Assembly (NCBI GenBank): GCA_017453205.1
Contig: JAFTKO010000005.1
Span: 1-40,112, forward strand
DNA: 40,112 nt
Origin: Clostridia bacterium
GTDB taxonomy: Bacteria; Bacillota; Clostridia; Oscillospirales; CAG-272
Direction: 5' to 3'
Position 1 is the first letter of the stretch. Every line of letters starts with the position of its first letter. Of the stretch, positions 3,310-14,997 are shown in pieces. Under the pieces are notes generated by a model. That model did no database searches, was not told where the DNA came from, and worked only from the letters and a program-made list of their open reading frames with translations. The translations under genes were made by a program, and so were the position numbers.

Positions 3310-3478
3310 CAATGGAAAGACTCCTTCCGTCAAAGGCTTACGGCTCCTCCTTGGGGGAGCTGTCGCGAAGCGACTGAGGGAGTCCGCAATGCAAAGTTAC
3401 TTTTTTGAAAGAACTCCTTCCGGCTCGCGGGGCTCGCCACCTCCCTCAAGAGGGAGGCTAAAGTAACTTTCCGTTGGC
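3310..3478 (+). repeat. GAGGGAG-type intergenic repeat, copy 1
   Basis: This fills the gap between malQ and the radical SAM gene (3277-3532). It contains GTCGCGAAGCGAC, a self-complementary core followed by TGAGGGAGTC, then GCAAAGTTACTTTTTTGAAAG, then CTCCCTCAAGAGGGAGGC (a hairpin). The same modules recur at 21530, 26170, 30175 and 35166. No ORF or clear promoter is seen inside it. Confidence 0.7.
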
Positions 3479-3532
3479 AGGATAGCAATACTTGTTACAA
3501 GCTCCCACAAAAATACAAAGAAAGGAGCCGCT

Positions 3533-4921
3533 ATGAGCATCCAAAACAAACTGGCACAGTATCGGGAATGGAAAAGCGGTGTCAAGCACTGCACGTTCAA
3601 TCCCGAGGGACCCGGCGTGGTGCGCATCCATCTCATCCCGCCAAAATTCCGATGGTTTGGCAACGCACCGTACATCGTCATCCTCAACGGCTATTATCTT
3701 TTGCCGTTGGGGTATTCATGGGCGGTCATGCTTTCGTTCTTTATGAGCGAGGTGAACCGTTTTGACGGCTGTCCCATCGGTGACAAGGACGCAGACAGTA
3801 TCGTGGAGAACACCCTCAAACATACGCGTCGCGTCTATCCGTCGACAAGCTGCGAAACGCTTCGCGAGGATTTGGAAACCATGCTCGGCGTCCTGTTTGC
3901 CGTGGCAAAGGGCGAGGATCCCAATGCCGAGATCGAGCGCCTTTCGATCCGCGCCTATGCGCGCAACATGACGGCGCCGCATCGTGTGGATTTGATGGTC
4001 AGCGCCATGACCGACGCGCACGGTACATGGCAGTGCAACCAAAAATGCCTGTTTTGCTACGCGGCAGGGCAGAGCTACGCCAAAACGCGCGAGTTGACCA
4101 CGCGGGAGTGGAAAGAAGCGATCGACCGTTTGCGCGACGCGGGGGTTCCGATGCTGACCTTTACGGGCGGTGAGCCGACCCTGCGCGCCGACCTTGCCGA
4201 ACTAATCGGTTACAGCAAATGGTTCGTCACACGCCTCAATACCAACGGTGTCGCTTTGACGCCCACACTGGTTGAGGAACTGAAGCAAGCCAGCCTTGAC
4301 AGCGTACAGATCACGCTTTACGCGGCGGATGAGACGATCCACAACGAGCTTGTGGGCGGCAATCACTTTGCCGACACGCTCAAAGGCATTCAAAACGCCG
4401 TGCGCGCGGGGCTGGATGTCAGCGTCAACACCCCGCTTTGCAAAAAGAACGCCGATTACCTCGCAACGCTGAAGCTGCTGAACGGGCTTGGCGTGCGCTT
4501 TGTAACCGTCAGCGGCTTGATCTGCACGGGCATGGCGGGGGTCAACCACGCGCAATACGACCTTTGCGAGGACGAGCTGGTTGCGATCTTGCGCAACGCC
4601 AAGCGTTTTTGCGGAGAACACGGCATGGAGATCGACTTTACTTCACCCGGACTTGTCGCCAAGGAAAAGCTGGAGGAGCTTTCCCTCAATGTTCCCTCCT
4701 GCGGGGCGGCGCTTTCCAACATGGCAATCGCGCCCGACGGTACCGTGGTGCCATGCCAAAGCTGGCTGACTGCCGACGCGGGGCTTGGCAACATTCTTAC
4801 CGATCCCTTTGAGAAGATTTGGAAGCACAAAAACTGCGTCACGCTCCGCAAAATGAGCGATGCGGAGGCGCTTTCCTGTCCTTTTCGCAAGGGGCAAAAG
4901 GAGGTACACCATGGCTCGTAA
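3533..4921 (+). CDS. Radical SAM protein with SPASM-like C-terminus, candidate peptide maturase
   Basis: The 462-aa protein has the radical SAM cluster motif CX3CX2C (Cys168, Cys172, Cys175) in a WQCNQKCLFCYAAG context, and the SAM-binding TGGEP motif at 211-215. The C-terminal part carries Cys390, Cys408, Cys435 and Cys449 around a PDGTVVPCQSW motif, as in SPASM/twitch enzymes that hold auxiliary FeS clusters and often modify peptides. The first 160 residues are an unrecognised domain, partly helical, which could serve as a substrate-recognition module; that is inference. The start is ATG at 3533, with AAAGGAG 8 nt upstream. The gene overlaps the next by 11 nt, and the next gene's AGGAGGT lies inside it, so the two are translationally coupled. 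The alternating Cys-Ala tail of the neighbour is the obvious candidate substrate. The exact reaction is unknown. Confidence 0.85.
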   Translation: MSIQNKLAQYREWKSGVKHCTFNPEGPGVVRIHLIPPKFRWFGNAPYIVILNGYYLLPLGYSWAVMLSFFMSEVNRFDGCPIGDKDADSIVENTLKHTRRVYPSTSCETLREDLETMLGVLFAVAKGEDPNAEIERLSIRAYARNMTAPHRVDLMVSAMTDAHGTWQCNQKCLFCYAAGQSYAKTRELTTREWKEAIDRLRDAGVPMLTFTGGEPTLRADLAELIGYSKWFVTRLNTNGVALTPTLVEELKQASLDSVQITLYAADETIHNELVGGNHFADTLKGIQNAVRAGLDVSVNTPLCKKNADYLATLKLLNGLGVRFVTVSGLICTGMAGVNHAQYDLCEDELVAILRNAKRFCGEHGMEIDFTSPGLVAKEKLEELSLNVPSCGAALSNMAIAPDGTVVPCQSWLTADAGLGNILTDPFEKIWKHKNCVTLRKMSDAEALSCPFRKGQKEVHHGS

Positions 4922-5972
4922 AAAAGTTTATGAGGATCCTTATTCTGAGGCGACGATCAAAAAGAAGCGCCGTTTTCCCGTGCTTAATTCGATGCTTTTG
5001 GGGCTGTTGGTCATTTTGCAGATCTGCTTGATCCTGCTTGCCGTTTTTGGCGAGGAGTCCGAGCCGCAGGACGTGATCAAGGAATATGAGATCACGGTCG
5101 AGCCGTGCGAGAACGGCACACTGGATATTACGTATTCGTTTGTGTGGCAAGCCTTGGACACGTCGGAGGACTTGACGTGGGTCGAGATCGGCATGGCGAA
5201 TGAGCATTTTGTTGCAAAAACGGTCTCGAATACGATCAGCGCGGTCGAAAAATACACGGACGGCGACTATGTGTCTTTGCAGATCGACTTCAAACGCGCT
5301 TACCAAGGCGGCGAAACATTGGAGTTTTCCTTTACGGTCAACCAAAGTGCCATGCTTTGCAAGGATGGGGACGGTTATTTTTATGAGTTTGTCCCGGGAT
5401 GGTTCAATGCCACACCTGTGGAGCACTATACTTTTCGTTGGAAGGATGCCGACGGCTTGATCACCTCCAACGCCCAAAGGGAAAAAGGCGGCTATCTGAT
5501 TTGGGAGGGTGTGATGGATTGCGGTACGTATGTGCTGATGAATGTCGGCTACAATGCTGCGGCATTTGACGGTGCCGCCACCGTGTCGTATACCCCCTTT
5601 GATGGCAGCGGCGTGACCGACGTGCTTGCCGATGAGCGTATGGCGGGTGGAGTATTTTGCGTTATCCTCGCGCTTGTGCTCGTCATTCCCGAGGTCTACA
5701 TCGTGGACAGCTTTGTTTCCTATGACCGCGGCAGAGGCTTTCTCCGCGGCTACGGCTACCACATCCACACCTACGGACATGTCAATCCGCATTATCGCAA
5801 AGAACAGCAAAAACGCTCCGGAGGCGCGGGGCGCGGAGGCTTTTCGGGCGGCGGGTGCGCCTGTGCGTGTGCTTGTGCCTGTGCCGGCGGCGGTCGCGCG
5901 GGGTGCAGTCAAAAGGATACCTATCAAAAAAGCTCCGTGCAGAAAAGTACAGAGCCCGAGAGAGAACCGTAA
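4911..5972 (+). CDS. Two-span membrane protein with Cys-Ala repeat tail, candidate radical SAM substrate
   Basis: The start chosen is ATG at 4911, with AGGAGGT 6 nt upstream; it gives 353 aa. A basic N-terminus precedes membrane segment 1 (about residues 24-46). A beta-rich, probably extracellular domain follows (about 50-243), then membrane segment 2 (about 245-268). A cytoplasmic tail rich in Gly, Arg and aromatic residues ends in CACACACACA (316-325), GGGRAG, Cys332 and SQKD. The Cys and Ala codons vary synonymously (TGC/TGT; GCC/GCG/GCT), so the repeat is not a simple DNA slippage product. The external domain loosely resembles DUF2207-like proteins, from memory and unverified. Coupling to the upstream radical SAM gene suggests the tail is modified, for example by thioether or other Cys crosslinks; this is inference. 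Metal binding by the unmodified cysteines is the main alternative. Confidence 0.85.
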   Translation: MARKKVYEDPYSEATIKKKRRFPVLNSMLLGLLVILQICLILLAVFGEESEPQDVIKEYEITVEPCENGTLDITYSFVWQALDTSEDLTWVEIGMANEHFVAKTVSNTISAVEKYTDGDYVSLQIDFKRAYQGGETLEFSFTVNQSAMLCKDGDGYFYEFVPGWFNATPVEHYTFRWKDADGLITSNAQREKGGYLIWEGVMDCGTYVLMNVGYNAAAFDGAATVSYTPFDGSGVTDVLADERMAGGVFCVILALVLVIPEVYIVDSFVSYDRGRGFLRGYGYHIHTYGHVNPHYRKEQQKRSGGAGRGGFSGGGCACACACACAGGGRAGCSQKDTYQKSSVQKSTEPEREP

Positions 5973-6022: not shown

Positions 6023-7789
6023 TCAAACACGGTATTTGCTTTCAAACTCCCCAAACACACGGGTAAATTCGGGGTCGCCGGACTTGACATCGTTGAGGTA
6101 GCGGTGCGTGTCAAAGCTGTCCTGCACGACCTCGATCAACGCCACGGCGATGTTGGAGCAGTGGTCGGAGATACGCTCGTAGTTGTTCAGCAGATCGGCA
6201 AGCACAAAGCCGAGCTCGATGGTGCAGTTGCCGTTTTGCAAGCGCTTGATGTGGTTGTCCTTGATCTTGGTGATCAGTCCATCAATCACCTGTTCCAACG
6301 GCTCCACACGGGTTGCGAGAGCGGGACTGTTTTCGCGGAAGGCGTTGGTCGTCAGCGTTAAAATTTCCATCGTCGCACGTGTCAGCACCTCCAGTTCACG
6401 CATTGCCTCCTCGGAGAAGGTAATGCCCTTGGTGTGCATTTCCTCGGAGACCTTGAGCAGGTTGACCGCATGGTCGCCCAAGCGCTCAAAATCACCAATG
6501 CAGTGGAGCATACGCGATACGGCGTGGCTGTCGGAGACCGAGATCTCTTGAGAAGAAATCTTGACCAAATACGTGCCGAGGCGGTCCTCCATCAAGTCGA
6601 GACGGTTCTCATTGGCAAGGATGCGTTCGGCGGTCTTGGGATCGTATTGATAGAGCATGGATACGGTCTCGATCAGCGTTTCATAAGCCAGCGACGACAT
6701 TTGCACCGTCAGATTGCTGCACTCGGCAATCGCAATCGAGGGAGAGAGCAGCAAACGGTCATCCAACATACAAAAAGTGTCAGTCTCGGCGGCTTTGCCG
6801 GGCTTTTTCTTTTCGCGCACCAGAGTTTCGATCAGCTTGACGATCTGCTTGGTGAACGGCATCAAGAGCACCGTCAGTACGATATTAAACAGCGTGTGCA
6901 GGACGGCGATCGACATGGGCGTGACCGCTTGGTTGACGATCTCCCAGTCAAAAATGGCGTTTCCGATCAAGAACAGCGGCAGACAAATGAGCGTGTTGAT
7001 GACATTCATCACCAAATGCGAGACCGCCACGCGCTTGGCGTTGATATTGGTCCCGATGGCGGAGATGACGGCCGTGACGCAGGTGCCGATGTTGATACCC
7101 ATGACCATGGGGACGACCATTTCAAAGGTGAAGCCGCCCGTGAGCGAGAGCGCCTGCAAAATACCTGTTGCCGCGGACGAGGATTGGATGACTGCGGTAA
7201 ACAGCATGGCAACGAGAAGTGCGAGGATGGGATTGGTAAAGCTACCAAGGATCGAGGTAAACTCGGGCATTTCCGCCAAGGGCTCCACGGCGTCGGACAT
7301 CATGGTCATGCCGTACATTAGTACCGCAAAGCCGACCAGCACCGTGCCGATACTGCGGCGGCTGTCCTTTTTGGAGAGCATAAGTAGGAAAATACCGATC
7401 AGCGCCAAAATGGGGGAGAAGTTGATGGGCTTGAGCATCTGTACGAGAAAGCCCTCGCTTTCAATGCCCATGAGGCTGAAGATCCACGCAGTGATGGTGG
7501 TGCCGATGTTTGCACCGAAGCAAACATAAATGGCTTGCGCAAAGGCAAGGATGCCCGAGTTGACCAAGCCCACCAGCATGACCGTGGTCGCGGATGAGGA
7601 TTGGATGACGGCGGTGATCGCCGCACCGAGCAGCATGCTGACAAACGGGTTGGAGGTCATTTTTTTGAGCAATACCTCGAGCTTACCGCCCGCCATTTTC
7701 TCCAAGCTGGAGGACATCACGTTCATGCCGTAAAGGAAGAACGCCAATCCGCCGATTAGGGAAAGAACCGAAAAGAAATCGAATGTCAT
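6023..7789 (-). CDS. Na+/phosphate cotransporter family protein with PhoU-like domain
   Basis: The 588-aa membrane protein belongs to the NptA/PNaS family. Its N-terminal half has two inverted repeats, each with the signature QSSSATT (first) or QSSSAAT (second), which line the Na+ and phosphate path. The C-terminal 220 or so residues are a helical PhoU-like domain, thought to regulate transport or bind metal or phosphate. ATG at 7787-7789 is preceded by AAAGAGGTAA. It is monocistronic with its own promoter and converges on the Cys-Ala tail gene. Import of phosphate is the likely job, but some bacterial members of the family may export phosphate instead. Confidence 0.92.
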   Translation of the reverse strand: MTFDFFSVLSLIGGLAFFLYGMNVMSSSLEKMAGGKLEVLLKKMTSNPFVSMLLGAAITAVIQSSSATTVMLVGLVNSGILAFAQAIYVCFGANIGTTITAWIFSLMGIESEGFLVQMLKPINFSPILALIGIFLLMLSKKDSRRSIGTVLVGFAVLMYGMTMMSDAVEPLAEMPEFTSILGSFTNPILALLVAMLFTAVIQSSSAATGILQALSLTGGFTFEMVVPMVMGINIGTCVTAVISAIGTNINAKRVAVSHLVMNVINTLICLPLFLIGNAIFDWEIVNQAVTPMSIAVLHTLFNIVLTVLLMPFTKQIVKLIETLVREKKKPGKAAETDTFCMLDDRLLLSPSIAIAECSNLTVQMSSLAYETLIETVSMLYQYDPKTAERILANENRLDLMEDRLGTYLVKISSQEISVSDSHAVSRMLHCIGDFERLGDHAVNLLKVSEEMHTKGITFSEEAMRELEVLTRATMEILTLTTNAFRENSPALATRVEPLEQVIDGLITKIKDNHIKRLQNGNCTIELGFVLADLLNNYERISDHCSNIAVALIEVVQDSFDTHRYLNDVKSGDPEFTRVFGEFESKYRV

Positions 7790-8033: not shown

Positions 8034-8050
8034 TTGAGAACCATTCTCAA
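8034..8050. promoter_or_regulatory. Fur-box-like operator
   Basis: TTGAGAA-CCA-TTCTCAA is a perfect 7-3-7 dyad abutting the -10 box and covering the probable transcription start. It resembles Fur-superfamily boxes (TGAGAATnATTCTCA type). It suggests metal- or peroxide-dependent autoregulation by the adjacent gene. Confidence 0.7.
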
Positions 8051-8069
8051 TTTACAAAAAGGACGTTTT

Positions 8070-8510
8070 ATGAAGAAGAAAAATTACAGGAGCGACGGGA
8101 GAGCGGCTTTGGTTGAGTTCCTTTCCCAAAATCCCGACTGCCAATTCACCACCGAGGAGCTTTGTTTGGCGGTCAACGGGAGCGAGACCGAGGGGCGGAG
8201 CAGTGTCTACCGCCATTTGACACAGCTTTGCGAGGACGAGACCGTGCGAAAGTTCCGCAATGAGGCACGCAAATGCGCGGTCTATCAATATATCGGAAAA
8301 AATTGTGACTGCGGCAACCACTTTCACGAAAAGTGTACGCGATGCGGGCGCCTGCGTCACCTTGATTGCAGTGACTCGGCGGCGTTTGCCGAGCATTTGC
8401 TGTTGGTGCACGGCTTTGCGGTTGATCGCGGACAGTCGATCCTGTACGGGCTTTGCGCCGATTGCCGCGCCGCCGAGAAGGGAGGTGCGCGTGATGGAGC
8501 ACTTTCTTGA
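8070..8510 (+). CDS. Fur-family transcriptional regulator
   Basis: The 146-aa protein has an N-terminal winged helix (about residues 10-75; SSVYRHLTQLCED is the recognition-helix region). A metal-binding half follows, with HFHEKCTRCGRL and a second Cys pair, CADC, near the end, giving the two structural zinc CXXC knuckles. Fur, Zur, PerR and Mur cannot be separated by eye. ATG at 8070 is chosen over an in-frame TTG at 8034, because that one lies inside the operator. The gene overlaps the next by 17 nt. Regulation of the downstream permease and of itself through the dyad at 8034 is the likely role; export of the sensed metal would make physiological sense. Confidence 0.9.
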   Translation: MKKKNYRSDGRAALVEFLSQNPDCQFTTEELCLAVNGSETEGRSSVYRHLTQLCEDETVRKFRNEARKCAVYQYIGKNCDCGNHFHEKCTRCGRLRHLDCSDSAAFAEHLLLVHGFAVDRGQSILYGLCADCRAAEKGGARDGALS

Positions 8511-9357
8511 GATCCTTTCCCACACACTGCTCGATACGTTCAAGCTGGTACCGTTTCTGTTTTTGACCTATCTGCTGATGGAATTTCTCGAGCACAAATC
8601 GGGTAACGCCGCCGAGAATTTGTTGCGGCGTTCGGGCAAGGTCGGTCCGCTTTTGGGCGGCTTGCTGGGTGTGGTTCCGCAGTGCGGCTTTTCCGCTGCC
8701 GCGTCGGGGCTTTACAGCGGACGCGTCATCACCGCAGGGACGCTGTTGGCGGTCTTTCTCTCCACCTCGGATGAGATGCTCCCCATCATGATCTCCCACG
8801 GCGCCCCCGCAGGCGAGGTGTTCAAGATCCTTGGTATCAAGCTGGCGGTTGCCGTGGCGGTCGGATTTTTGGTGGACGCTGTCGCGCGGCTTTATCACCG
8901 AAAGTGGGTTGCAGAGGCGCAGGAGCCGCAGATCGAAGCTTTTTGCGAGCGTGAGCATTGCGACTGTCACGACCATTTTGCGCTGTCGGCGCTCAAGCAT
9001 ACGCTGTCGGTCACGTTGTTCATCCTCATCGTCACTTTTGCGCTCAATTTGATAATCCACGGGGTAGGGGAGGACAAGCTTGCGGAATTTGTTCTCGACC
9101 GTCCCGTGATCGGCAACGTGTTGGCTGCGCTTGTGGGACTGATCCCCAACTGCGCCTCGTCGGTGGTGCTGACCGAGCTTTATCTCGGCGGCATTCTTTC
9201 TCTCGGCTGTGTGCTATCGGGATTGTTGGTCAACGCGGGCATCGGTATTGCCATTCTGTTTCGTAACAATCGCCCCGTGCGCGATTCATTCCGCATCGTC
9301 GGCATTTTGTGGCTTGTCGGTGCCTTGACGGGTATTTTGATCGATTTGATATTTTAG
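8494..9357 (+). CDS. Putative heavy-metal or arsenic exporter, ArsP_2-like permease
   Basis: The 287-aa integral membrane protein has two related halves, each with a proline- and cysteine-bearing motif in a membrane segment: GVVPQCGFSAAASGLY and GLIPNCASSVVLTELY. This matches the family annotated as putative 10-TM heavy-metal exporter or putative manganese transporter (PF11449). The loop between the halves is rich in metal ligands (CEREHCDCHDHF). ATG at 8494 is preceded by GGAGGT; the gene starts 17 nt before the regulator gene ends, so translation is probably coupled. The substrate is unknown. The Fur-family partner points to a divalent metal rather than arsenite. Confidence 0.8.
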   Translation: MEHFLEILSHTLLDTFKLVPFLFLTYLLMEFLEHKSGNAAENLLRRSGKVGPLLGGLLGVVPQCGFSAAASGLYSGRVITAGTLLAVFLSTSDEMLPIMISHGAPAGEVFKILGIKLAVAVAVGFLVDAVARLYHRKWVAEAQEPQIEAFCEREHCDCHDHFALSALKHTLSVTLFILIVTFALNLIIHGVGEDKLAEFVLDRPVIGNVLAALVGLIPNCASSVVLTELYLGGILSLGCVLSGLLVNAGIGIAILFRNNRPVRDSFRIVGILWLVGALTGILIDLIF

Positions 9358-9769: not shown

Positions 9770-10300
9770 TCAACCGAGCCAACGGTAGAACTCGCGGCGG
9801 CGCTTTGCTTTTTGTCCGCTTTGAGCGGCGGCGGCAACAGCGGCGGTCACGATGCAAGCGGCAACGGCGGGAAGAACGATCTTGCCAACCTTTTGCACTT
9901 TTTCGTCCTTGGCAACAGCAACGACTTTGTCTTTCCACTCTTTGACAGTGTCGGAGGGCTTCTTTTTGGGAGTTGCGGGAGCCACATCGACCTCGCAGGT
10001 GTCCTCTTCTTCAAAGCAGTAGTCATCCTCGCCGTACATGATGTCGGTCTCGCGCTTTGCTTGGTGGCTTGCAACACCGTAGCAGATCCAAGCAATGCCG
10101 AGGAAGATCAGCGTCAGTCCCGCGCCGATGAGAACATACTCAAGCAGGATCTCAAAGGGCATTTCAAAAATCAGTTCAAAGGGCATCCACGCATATTTGG
10201 TGCAGTGAACAAAGCCGGCTGCAAGGGTAACGATTGCCAAGATGATACCGATCCAAAGGAGCACGGTCCCGGCTCTATGTGTTTTTTCCGATTTCAACAT
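9770..10300 (-). CDS. Uncharacterised membrane protein with RREFxxWL-type tail
   Basis: The 176-aa protein has two N-terminal membrane segments (about residues 12-32 and 50-75), an acidic then basic linker (about 85-130), and an Ala-rich hydrophobic segment (about 140-160). It ends in a basic motif, RRREFYRWLG. The gene starts 15 nt after its upstream partner, with GGGAGG overlapping the intergenic space, so the two form an operon. The upstream protein ends in a very similar Ala-rich segment plus LRREFFNWLT. I do not recognise either family. The shared tail suggests a common anchor or partner-binding signal. Confidence 0.75.
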   Translation of the reverse strand: MLKSEKTHRAGTVLLWIGIILAIVTLAAGFVHCTKYAWMPFELIFEMPFEILLEYVLIGAGLTLIFLGIAWICYGVASHQAKRETDIMYGEDDYCFEEEDTCEVDVAPATPKKKPSDTVKEWKDKVVAVAKDEKVQKVGKIVLPAVAACIVTAAVAAAAQSGQKAKRRREFYRWLG

Positions 10301-10315
10301 GTGAAGTACCTCCCA

Positions 10316-11350
10316 TTAAGTCAACCAATTGAAAAATTCTCTGCGAAGGGCAGCGGTCTTTCTGTTCGCCGCCGATTTCTTTCCTGCGGAGACCATAGCC
10401 ACTGCAGCAACAGCGGCACAAGCCGCGGCAACGGGAGCAACCTTATGTAAGTTCTTTTTCAGCTCCTCGGGCTTGGAAAGATCGGGAATGAGGCTCTGCA
10501 AAGCCTTCTTTCTGGCTCTCTTTGCGTCTCCTGCCTTTTCGATCTTGTATGCCTCGATCACGGCGTCCATGTTCTCGTTTCTCCAAGCAGCCTTCTTTTC
10601 GGCTTCAAGACGTGCGCGCTCGGCAAGCTCGGCTTCATACTCGGCTTGCTTTTCGGCAATCTCGGCGGCAATCTCCTCGGCAAGGCGCTTTTGTTTGTTG
10701 GAAGCACCGCCGACGAACAGACCGACAATGATCATCACCACCGCGATACCGCCGAAGATGGCGAGATCGATCCAACGGAACTTAAAGAACGCAAACTCGA
10801 CCATGATCATGTAGACCAGTGCACCGATGAGCCCCGTGAAGATGCCCACAAATGCGAATGCCTTGGAAATAACGGAAAGACGCTTGGATTTTGCCATGTG
10901 ATCGTACACAGGCTCAAAGGAGGGCGGCTCGGGGAGCGCTTCCTCTTCCAGCTTGAGTACATCGTGCTCGATATGCTCGGTCAGTGTGTCCAGCTCCTCG
11001 CTGAACTCTGCGGCAAAGCGCTTTGCCTCCGCCTCGCGGATGCGCGCCTCCACCACCTTGAGCTCTGCCTGCTTTTTCTGCTTTTCGGCAACCAGCTTTT
11101 GCAGGAGCTCTCTGCATCGGTCGACCTGCGGGCTGAGTCCCTTGGATTTTGCCAAGGAAAGCTTTTCGGTTACGACCTTTTCTTTTTCTTCGTAAAGACG
11201 AATGTCCGCGCGAAGATTTTCCGCAAGGGTGTTGTCATCAACCGTTGCTTCGGTATCTTCCGCCGCTTCGGTTGCTTCGTCGATTTCGGCGGTTACGGCT
11301 TCTTCTGCCGCAAGCGCTTCTTCGACCAGTCTCTTTTTCTTCTTGCCCAT
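10316..11350 (-). CDS. Uncharacterised coiled-coil membrane protein with RREFxxWL-type tail
   Basis: The start chosen is ATG at 11350 (GGAGG 6 nt upstream), giving 344 aa; a start 30 nt further upstream has no ribosome binding site. The N-terminus is very acidic after a short Lys run. A Lys/Glu-rich coiled coil follows (about 45-135), then two membrane segments (about 165-215), a second Ala/Glu coiled coil (about 220-275), an Ala-rich hydrophobic segment, and the terminal LRREFFNWLT. It heads the operon with the 176-aa protein. No enzymatic motif is visible. A structural or membrane-organising role is possible but is a guess. Confidence 0.75.
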   Translation of the reverse strand: MGKKKKRLVEEALAAEEAVTAEIDEATEAAEDTEATVDDNTLAENLRADIRLYEEKEKVVTEKLSLAKSKGLSPQVDRCRELLQKLVAEKQKKQAELKVVEARIREAEAKRFAAEFSEELDTLTEHIEHDVLKLEEEALPEPPSFEPVYDHMAKSKRLSVISKAFAFVGIFTGLIGALVYMIMVEFAFFKFRWIDLAIFGGIAVVMIIVGLFVGGASNKQKRLAEEIAAEIAEKQAEYEAELAERARLEAEKKAAWRNENMDAVIEAYKIEKAGDAKRARKKALQSLIPDLSKPEELKKNLHKVAPVAAACAAVAAVAMVSAGKKSAANRKTAALRREFFNWLT

Positions 11351-13100: not shown

Positions 13101-13688
13101 TTACTTTGTCTCATCGGGCTCGGAGAGATTTTCGACCAAGAGGTAATCGTCCTCGGCGTCAAACTCGCTGTCGGCGGGACGCCAAGCTTGACCGAAATTC
13201 GTCTCGCGGAAGAGCGCGGCAAGACCTGTGATCTGCTTCAGACGCAGGATCTCGTCTTTGTCCATGCCGAGGTGTTTGGAGATCCAAGCGTCACTGCGGC
13301 CGATGTCGTGCAGATCGCGGATGATGTTGCTCATCAGATCAACGTCATGCGAGCCGCGGGCACGGTTGTGACGGATGGTGCTTGCCATACGCCCCGAGAG
13401 CGGCTTGTCGATCACCGAGACGGGGAGCATCCCGCCCTCGCGCTCATAGATGTCGGGATAATCGCGCATGACGCGGTAGCGGTGAAAGCCGTCTACGATG
13501 ATGTAGCGGTCGGCATCCTTGTCGTGGTAGCAAACGATGGGCATGGTGTAGCCGTCCTCGCGGATGCTGTCATACAGCAGCTTGATTTCGGGCGGTGCCA
13601 TGACGTTCGGGTTGTAGTCGTTGGGCACGATCTTTTCAATCGGTACGGCAATGACGCTGTAAACGGGACTTTTGATTTTATTCTTCAT
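13101..13688 (-). CDS. ParB-like N-terminal domain protein (IbrB-like)
   Basis: The 195-aa protein has a ParB/sulfiredoxin-type domain: PIEKIVPNDYNPN at the start, the VDGFHRYRV motif near residues 68-76 and RHNRARGSH near residues 108-116. A helix-turn-helix-like stretch (about 128-155) follows. This is the architecture of IbrB, which is encoded with IbrA in enterobacteria and needed there for expression of immunoglobulin-binding proteins; the biochemical role is unknown. ATG at 13686-13688 has GGAG upstream. It overlaps the preceding PAPS-reductase-like gene by 11 nt, so the two are co-translated. It is not a chromosome-partition ParB: there is no ParA neighbour and the protein is short. 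Confidence 0.85.
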   Translation of the reverse strand: MKNKIKSPVYSVIAVPIEKIVPNDYNPNVMAPPEIKLLYDSIREDGYTMPIVCYHDKDADRYIIVDGFHRYRVMRDYPDIYEREGGMLPVSVIDKPLSGRMASTIRHNRARGSHDVDLMSNIIRDLHDIGRSDAWISKHLGMDKDEILRLKQITGLAALFRETNFGQAWRPADSEFDAEDDYLLVENLSEPDETK

Positions 13689-14997
13689 AGATCATTTCTC
13701 CGTATTGTTCTTTGATCAAATTGATGCGGCGCTGTTCCTCGCGCGTCAGCCCAAAGCCCATAAAGCGGCAGAGGTGGTCGTTTTTGAGGATGCAGTAGCA
13801 CATACGCTTCCAGCTGGGAATGTCCTTTGTGGAGCGGATGTCATCGGTGTGGTCGGGGACCTTGTCAAGGAAGATGACGCGCGGCTTTTTGCTCAGTGTG
13901 TAGTTGGAGACGCCGTTGAGGGCAATGCGGTAGCCTCTTTCGCGCAGCTCCGCAATGGTCTCCTCGGAGAGCCCGCCGCCGATCTTGTGCCAAAACTCGA
14001 TGGATGTGTTAAATTTTTTGATGTAATTGTTACGCAGACGATGGGGGAGGGTGTCAAGCAGAAACCGCGTGTAGCTTTCCCACGTATGTCCCTCGGGCAG
14101 AGTGATGTTGCGGTAGCCCATGGCTTTGGTTCTGCCGTAGATCGCCGCAAAGTTAACGCCGCGCACGCGCCCGACCAGCTTGGTCCAGATCTGCGGGTCG
14201 ATGACACGGTACAGGTTCAAGCTGTCCTTGGAGTACTCGTTAAAGGGCGATGCCACGCGCATTTGGTCGACCGAAAGACCGGCTTTGTAGTAGAGGTCGT
14301 AGAGCTTGTTGTAATCGTAACCGAATTTGTAGTTTGCTACCCAAACGTCGTACACGCTCCAGTCGTACATGGGGGAGGCGCACCAAACATCCTTGAATTG
14401 CTTGGTGATCCAGCACTCGCCGTTGTAGCCGTAGCGTTTGTTCAAAAAGCCGCTGTAACGTTGGAGCGACTCATCGGCGCGCATGCCGAGCAGACACACG
14501 GTCTTTTTGTCTCCGTGTATCTCCTTGTAATGCCGCGCAAACTGCTTTGCCAAGTCCTCTTGGTGCATGCGGTAGTGATAGTGGTTGAAAGGATTTTTGA
14601 GATTGATGACGTAAGGGAAGTCGGGCATGGGGCGCACCCAAGCGTCCTCCTTGGTGTCGTCCCAAGGATACCAGAACATTTCGTAGTTGCTCAGCGCCGT
14701 GCGTGTTGCCATGGGGAGACAGACCCAATAGGGCTCGACCTCGTCCTTGAGTCGCTCGAATGTGCGTGTGACATACTCGGTGGTTACGGAGTACTGGGCT
14801 TCAAAGTCTTGATGGAACAAACCGATGACGCGGTGGGGGTAGTGTTCCTTTCGGTAGTCGAGCAACATATTGAGCAAAAGCCCGCTGTCCTTGCCGCCGC
14901 TGAAAGAAACATAAATGTTGTCAAATTCGCGAAACAGATATTCAAATCTCTGCTGTGTCGCTTCATAAACGTCGTAGGGTAGTAATTCTTTATTCAA
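13678..14997 (-). CDS. PAPS-reductase-like PP-loop protein with DUF3440 (IbrA-like)
   Basis: The 439-aa protein has the PP-loop ATP-pyrophosphatase motif SFSGGKDSG near residues 31-39, as in PAPS reductase, DndC and IbrA. A long C-terminal part follows, resembling DUF3440. The cysteine of the usual PAPS-reductase ECG-type tail is not seen, so classical sulfate reduction is unlikely. The start is TTG at 14995-14997; GAGGAAAGGA lies 13 nt upstream and the next Met is only at residue 44. It is the first gene of a two-gene operon with the ParB-like gene. Such pairs are scattered among bacteria and phages. A nucleotide or nucleic-acid modification role is inference from the PP-loop family. Confidence 0.88.
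   Translation of the reverse strand: MNKELLPYDVYEATQQRFEYLFREFDNIYVSFSGGKDSGLLLNMLLDYRKEHYPHRVIGLFHQDFEAQYSVTTEYVTRTFERLKDEVEPYWVCLPMATRTALSNYEMFWYPWDDTKEDAWVRPMPDFPYVINLKNPFNHYHYRMHQEDLAKQFARHYKEIHGDKKTVCLLGMRADESLQRYSGFLNKRYGYNGECWITKQFKDVWCASPMYDWSVYDVWVANYKFGYDYNKLYDLYYKAGLSVDQMRVASPFNEYSKDSLNLYRVIDPQIWTKLVGRVRGVNFAAIYGRTKAMGYRNITLPEGHTWESYTRFLLDTLPHRLRNNYIKKFNTSIEFWHKIGGGLSEETIAELRERGYRIALNGVSNYTLSKKPRVIFLDKVPDHTDDIRSTKDIPSWKRMCYCILKNDHLCRFMGFGLTREEQRRINLIKEQYGEMIYEE

Follow-up and report, generated by a model that had tools for sequence, protein, structure and literature searches.

What does a radical S-adenosylmethionine (SAM) enzyme act on when its gene overlaps that of a membrane protein ending in a run of Cys-Ala repeats? 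The question is raised by a gene pair in the window, a 40,112-nucleotide stretch of DNA from a Clostridia bacterium (GenBank assembly GCA_017453205.1, contig JAFTKO010000005.1, positions 1 to 40,112), in which the radical SAM enzyme P0001 is followed by the membrane protein P0002, whose C-terminal tail reads CACACACACA-GGGRAG-C (Table 1). Whether one starts from the tail or from the enzyme, the other is almost always linked to it. The explanation that best accounts for the data is that the pair probably constitutes a two-gene protein-modification module whose product is retained in the membrane, and there is strong reason to regard the tail as the substrate of the enzyme.

The preliminary description of this locus expected the Cys-Ala run and an adjacent radical SAM gene to occur together, and searches begun from the tail, from the enzyme, and from the body of the membrane protein all bear this out; the same tail lacking a linked radical SAM gene, which it named as the contrary outcome, is not what was found. 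The tail pattern occurs in at least 118 stretches of the named GTDB genomes scanned (80 listed; loci L003–L120), with 121 tail open reading frames (ORFs), 22 of which are cut inside the tail gene at a locus edge and are uninformative. Among the tail-first matches listed, an enzyme relative lies in the locus of 97 of the 99 uncut tail ORFs: upstream on the same strand in 84, downstream on the same strand in 5, on the other strand in 2, and upstream and cut at the locus edge in 6. For the two tail ORFs without an enzyme, the preceding sequence is 43 bases long in L043 and 438 bases long in L119, a locus that also ends at the tail. An enzyme-first search, with a 42-row enzyme alignment at E ≤ 1e-60, has a sample that is not chosen by the tail. 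It matched 15/398 phylum, 2/197 order, and 10/391 class genomes; leaving out the source genome, which is counted in all three, 24 genomes remain, and a Cys-repeat tail gene adjoins the enzyme in 21 of them (13 phylum, 1 order, 7 class), while in the other three (G345; G769, with 405 bases left; and G806) the contig ends before a tail is readable. The distant enzyme P0264, used as query at E ≤ 1e-40, matched 11/204 genomes, 8 already counted and 3 new, and in two of the latter (G009 and G096) a (CHSA)n tail gene is adjacent to the enzyme. Across the 27 other genomes reached from the enzyme, the tail is present in 23, unreadable in 3, and absent in 1. The P0262 query also matches G388, but the gene there is truncated by the contig end, which leaves tail and enzyme unreadable.

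A profile of the membrane protein with its tail cut off (E ≤ 1e-8) matched 11 of the same 398 phylum genomes. Each of the 11 belongs to the 15 enzyme genomes, and the body and enzyme matches have adjoining coordinates (Fisher p = 1.6e-18). The CACACA tail is visible in 8 of the 10 such loci outside the source genome, the other 2 running into a contig end, and in the remaining 4 of the 15 enzyme genomes the tail is carried by another membrane body. Enzyme and body distances are correlated (r 0.89 for 70 single pairs, against at most 0.25 in 500 permutations), as would also be expected from shared descent alone. Neighbour gene clustering found no third gene that recurs beside the pair across 131 loci: the pair's own gene clusters are present in 111 and 98 of the 131, the next most frequent cluster in 14, and a conserved third partner was rejected on this count. 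The earlier remark that no protease or exporter gene lies nearby holds in that no export or protease gene recurs at these loci.

The enzyme has the features of one that modifies peptides. It is over cut-off for PF04055 (5e-25; 89 bits against 29.5) and PF13186 (36.3 bits against 21.5), and the CX3CX2C motif first noted from the sequence is present and invariant. The four C-terminal cysteines that had been described as SPASM-like are also present, as C390, C408, C435, and C449 (C435 not being invariant in relatives). The full SPASM set is missing, however: because most of the second-cluster cysteines are absent from the window enzyme, as they are from the form A enzymes defined below, its sequence marks it as Twitch-like rather than full SPASM. 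CxxCx5CGGxC-like ends do occur in the enzymes of forms B, C, and E (form E being represented by P0264). The closest predicted-fold relatives are SuiB, which aligns to the enzyme model over 364–369 residues from residue 18–20 onward, and SkfB, which aligns over 342 residues from residue 30; anSME aligns over 281–288 residues from 147–149. Judged from the model, the enzyme appears to have the N-terminal winged-helix recognition element (RRE) characteristic of RRE-containing maturases of ribosomally synthesized and post-translationally modified peptides (RiPPs). No named NCBIfam maturase family reached its cut-off among the best 25 of 72 matches, with SkfB at 64.2 of 300 bits and PapB at 50.6 of 340. 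A role in defence, considered from a PADLOC pVip match (1.7e-15), is not favoured: the likeness to viperins seems to be one of the generic core, covering residues 163–307 only, and the NCBIfam viperin model gives 46.5 of 180 bits with the relative L108.

The partner protein begins within the enzyme gene, and the 11-nt overlap seen at the outset is confirmed by both ORFs. Although the partner's reading frame, taken mechanically at its longest, would begin at 4860 (370 aa), its start was placed at the ATG at 4911 because a ribosome site lies there (AAGGAGGT at 4898–4905, read from the sequence, as was a site upstream of the enzyme start). The (Cys-Ala)5 tail is as originally read, with the core encoded by TGC GCC TGT GCG TGT GCT TGT GCC TGT GCC GGC GGC GGT CGC GCG GGG TGC, and topology prediction agrees with the proposal that it lies on the cytosolic side. 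The five-unit Cys-Ala pattern has one match in the window and none in 100 window shuffles, and the four-unit pattern occurs in the source genome (2.29 Mb, 73% complete) at this place only, as two overlapping matches. Among 131 copies of the 15-codon tail core there are 126 distinct DNA versions, differing on average at 8.7 nt, of which 8.3 are third-position differences, so that the synonymous codon variation described earlier is real; together with the shuffles, it led us to reject chance or a DNA-repeat artefact as the origin of the tail. Because most of the 131 copies were selected by amino-acid pattern, residue constancy is to be judged from the enzyme-first loci. P0002 has no family over cut-off in Pfam and none in NCBIfam at E ≤ 1, the form B, form C, and L108 partners have no NCBIfam family at E ≤ 0.5, TIGR04222 included, and neither a PDB sequence search with the partner nor a viral fold search returned a useful match.

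The pairing also extends beyond a single family of membrane proteins and beyond Cys-Ala repeats, as other bodies and (CHSA)n repeats were found. In the forms as lettered in this analysis, form A tails read (CA)4-7-GGGRAGC-SxKD (the window; going by record titles, Lachnospiraceae, Oscillospiraceae, and some Bacilli) and form B tails CxCVSCACACVSCACACACAGG[GR]GAGC. In form C, CACACACACA-SSGGCT or -GGGGCT makes up the extreme C-terminus of a different membrane protein, of about 474 aa and encoded 5′ of its enzyme; a homologue search found 21 proteins, of which 19, counting the query's own cluster, end in CACACACACASSGGCT and two larger ones in related repeats. Form D (L167, L170) ends in GGRVGCSERGYQV, and form E consists of CHSA repeats ending in ACVSGGAR on a 560-aa protein whose gene overlaps that of the enzyme by 4 nt, with two more genomes found. 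In a midpoint-rooted tree of 25 enzymes, forms A, B, C, and E each make up one clade, of 11, 6, 4, and 3 members with support of 0.83, 0.97, 0.99, and 1.0, respectively, and form D is a single member. Each enzyme clade is matched to its own tail form, and distant clades have theirs, (CHSA)n included, on other membrane bodies.

In the model that we favor, the enzyme would act on the Cys repeat at the cytosolic C-terminus of its membrane-protein partner, the RRE-like domain holding the tail or its follower. The 5′-deoxyadenosyl radical would abstract hydrogen from an Ala, Gly, or Cys of the tail, and a cysteine sulfur, perhaps bound to an open-site auxiliary cluster, would close onto that residue to form thioether crosslinks. 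The product would be a stapled, cysteine-rich cap at the inner face of the membrane, neither cleaved nor exported. Thioether crosslinking is proposed tentatively as the modification, and the modified tail might conceivably serve in redox or metal sensing or binding. The idea that the tail is the substrate, already put forward in the preliminary description, draws support from the linkage, the fold likeness to SkfB and SuiB, the predicted cytosolic tail, and the lack of a recurring export or protease gene; the SPASM-like context noted there is to be read as Twitch-like.

Three other explanations have to be weighed against this, of which the first two are serious competitors. The enzyme could epimerise alternate residues of the repeat, leaving an alternating L/D stretch free of crosslinks. 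Such epimerases need a hydrogen-donor cysteine, and C303, considered as a universal catalytic cysteine, was rejected, being T in forms B and C and V in form D; moreover, the form E repeats have a period of 4 and the matches to SkfB and SuiB are better, which makes epimerisation unlikely. Alternatively, the tail could go unmodified and serve as a scaffold for metal or Fe-S binding or for redox chemistry, used by the enzyme for cluster or electron supply or left alone by an enzyme that acts elsewhere. The cysteines would be dense on one face of a strand, the comparison of forms A–E indicates that Cys count matters more than exact sequence, and a Fur-family regulator gene followed by an ArsP_2 heavy-metal permease gene (8034–9357) stands 2 kb downstream. 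Neither of these genes recurs beside the pair elsewhere, however, the enzyme architecture is that of peptide-modifying enzymes, and a scaffold does not require that nearly every genome carry a radical SAM enzyme dedicated to it, so that this explanation, too, appears improbable. That the tail is cleaved and exported as a classic RiPP is highly improbable despite the similarity of the enzyme to maturases, as the tail belongs to a protein with two membrane segments and is predicted to lie inside, no protease or transporter recurs at the 131 loci, and the ectodomain is itself conserved in relatives.

Several observations nevertheless weigh against a retained, modified membrane protein. Linkage alone is no proof of a substrate relation. 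CteB, a known thioether maturase, aligns from model residues 141–147 only, without the N-terminal domain, and Cys-Ala units differ in number among proteins that are otherwise nearly the same: P0003 is identical to P0002 at 295 of 297 aligned residues, yet has 4 units against 5. The weakest enzyme match, G173 (5.7e-42), lacks such a tail: nowhere in the 12 kb read do six cysteines follow one another closely. The module is patchy (2/197 genomes of its own order and, besides the source genome, 0/12 listed genomes of its own family) and may decay: in G885, a one-contig genome (L170, 4660–7568), the tail gene is split by an insert beside an open enzyme gene, and in two class matches, L166 and L167, a single stop codon (TAA and TAG) interrupts the enzyme match. 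Finally, the form A tails are mostly a sample selected by the tail pattern itself, and words from the tail enter the homologue search as well.

Table 1. Positions of the gene pair and its parts in the window
Feature	Position	Strand	Remarks
Radical SAM enzyme P0001	3533..4921	+	462 aa; RRE-like N-terminal domain, radical SAM barrel, Twitch/SPASM-like C-terminus
RRE-like domain, aa 18–125	3584..3907	+	Strands, then three helices in the model; aligns within SkfB and SuiB
CX3CX2C (C168/C172/C175), ligands of the SAM-binding cluster	4034..4057	+	Invariant in aligned relatives
Twitch/SPASM-like region, C390–C449	4700..4879	+	PF13186; C390, C408, and C449 invariant across aligned forms
Overlap of enzyme stop and partner start, 11 nt	4911..4921	+	ORF coordinates
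Membrane protein with Cys-repeat tail P0002	4911..5972	+	353 aa; homologues found
First membrane segment, aa 28–46	4992..5048	+	Hydropathy; basic residues before; model helix 24–46
Extracytoplasmic beta domain, aa 49–238	5055..5624	+	Predicted from the model
Second membrane segment, aa 247–265	5649..5705	+	Hydropathy, model
Tail core CACACACACAGGGRAGC, presumed modification site	5856..5906	+	Conserved in enzyme-first loci
Follower SQKDTY	5907..5924	+	SxKDFY in many relatives, absent in form C; possible recognition piece

The surroundings of the pair offer some further observations. The intergenic region 5′ of the enzyme gene (3330–3485) is a dispersed repeat with 57 matches in the source genome, itself included, some of them in the window. 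The nearest transport genes among the Pfam-scanned neighbours encode a Na/Pi cotransporter (6023–7789) and the ArsP_2 permease (8482–9357). Farther downstream, two adjoining membrane-protein ORFs without a Pfam match (9770–11350) have similar ends, RRREFYRWLG and RREFFNWLT, and a ParB_N-like gene overlaps a DUF3440 gene (13101–14868), a pair that resembles IbrB-IbrA. At other loci, two tail genes share one enzyme gene (L006, L052, L075, and L171), one of the two tail copies in L171 reading CACACAYACACAGGGRAGC; the form B pairs in L153, L154, and L155 are followed by a gene without a Pfam match and then by a LemA-type gene (PF04011, tested in L153); and transposase-looking ORFs, judged by eye, lie between the two tail-gene pieces of G885.

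The partner has 2981 relatives at E ≤ 1e-3, and the tail was inspected in the best 120 of these. Going by their record titles, the tail-first stretches listed come for the most part from Clostridia of the gut and rumen, and a smaller number from Bacilli, Acholeplasmatales, and Anaeroplasma; Acholeplasmatales and Anaeroplasma are wall-less. Cells of many anaerobic bacteria probably modify the tail of a protein kept in their own membrane. On balance, we lean toward a widespread class of modified resident membrane proteins with bodies that are mutually dissimilar at the thresholds used and cytosolic (CA)n or (CHSA)n tails, each with its own RRE-radical SAM clade, in which the repeat would be stapled or otherwise rebuilt into a permanent anchored cap with a redox or metal function. 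If the tail does undergo modification, radical chemistry of the RiPP type serves here as a post-translational modification of a retained membrane protein and not of an exported peptide, and the rebuilt repeat would amount to a RiPP-type product that stays part of its protein for good. The partner belongs to no Pfam or NCBIfam family and the enzyme to no named one (among the matches listed), and a module of only two genes makes a direct test feasible.

No description of this enzyme–tail pair was found in the open-access literature (subscription papers and preprints lay outside the search), and the tail sequence strings gave no match among open-access papers. The closest idea found in print is that of the TIGR04222 membrane proteins, which have a C-terminal Cys-rich low-complexity tail proposed as the substrate of an adjacent MNIO enzyme (PMC12452194). 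That system, mostly of Actinomycetota, differs from the present pair in using a multinuclear iron enzyme instead of a radical SAM enzyme, in its tail being predicted periplasmic, and in its looser linkage, 490 of 1372 genomes having no MNIO (PMC12452194). DUF2207 (PF09972) shows a weak N-terminal likeness to P0002, at 12.4 bits against a gathering score of 24.4 (E 0.19), with 2/43 relatives matching at E ≤ 0.01 (best 0.0051; L108 at 0.023), and form B shares with DUF2207 membrane proteins a place beside a LemA gene; the Cys repeat and the enzyme set the partner apart. As a hint only, one study describes a DUF2207 mutant of S. mutans as acid- and oxidant-sensitive (PMC10457818). SkfB, the sporulation killing factor sactisynthase (PDB 6efn), has about 20% identity to the enzyme and a secreted killing-factor peptide as its substrate, whereas here the enzyme gene adjoins that of a membrane protein; SuiB, a Lys-Trp crosslinking enzyme (PDB 5v1q, 5v1s, and 5v1t), acts on a short peptide. 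According to PMC6231123, SkfB is likewise of the Twitch type and SuiB, unlike the window enzyme, has a full SPASM domain. Sactipeptide and ranthipeptide systems combine a short precursor with export and protease genes, in contrast to the 353-aa membrane protein and the lack of a recurring third gene described here, and the pair was not filed under either class because its precursor is resident in the membrane and the cut-offs of the named maturase families are not reached. The module would work as a RiPP maturase does on its precursor, with a membrane protein that stays in place as the precursor.
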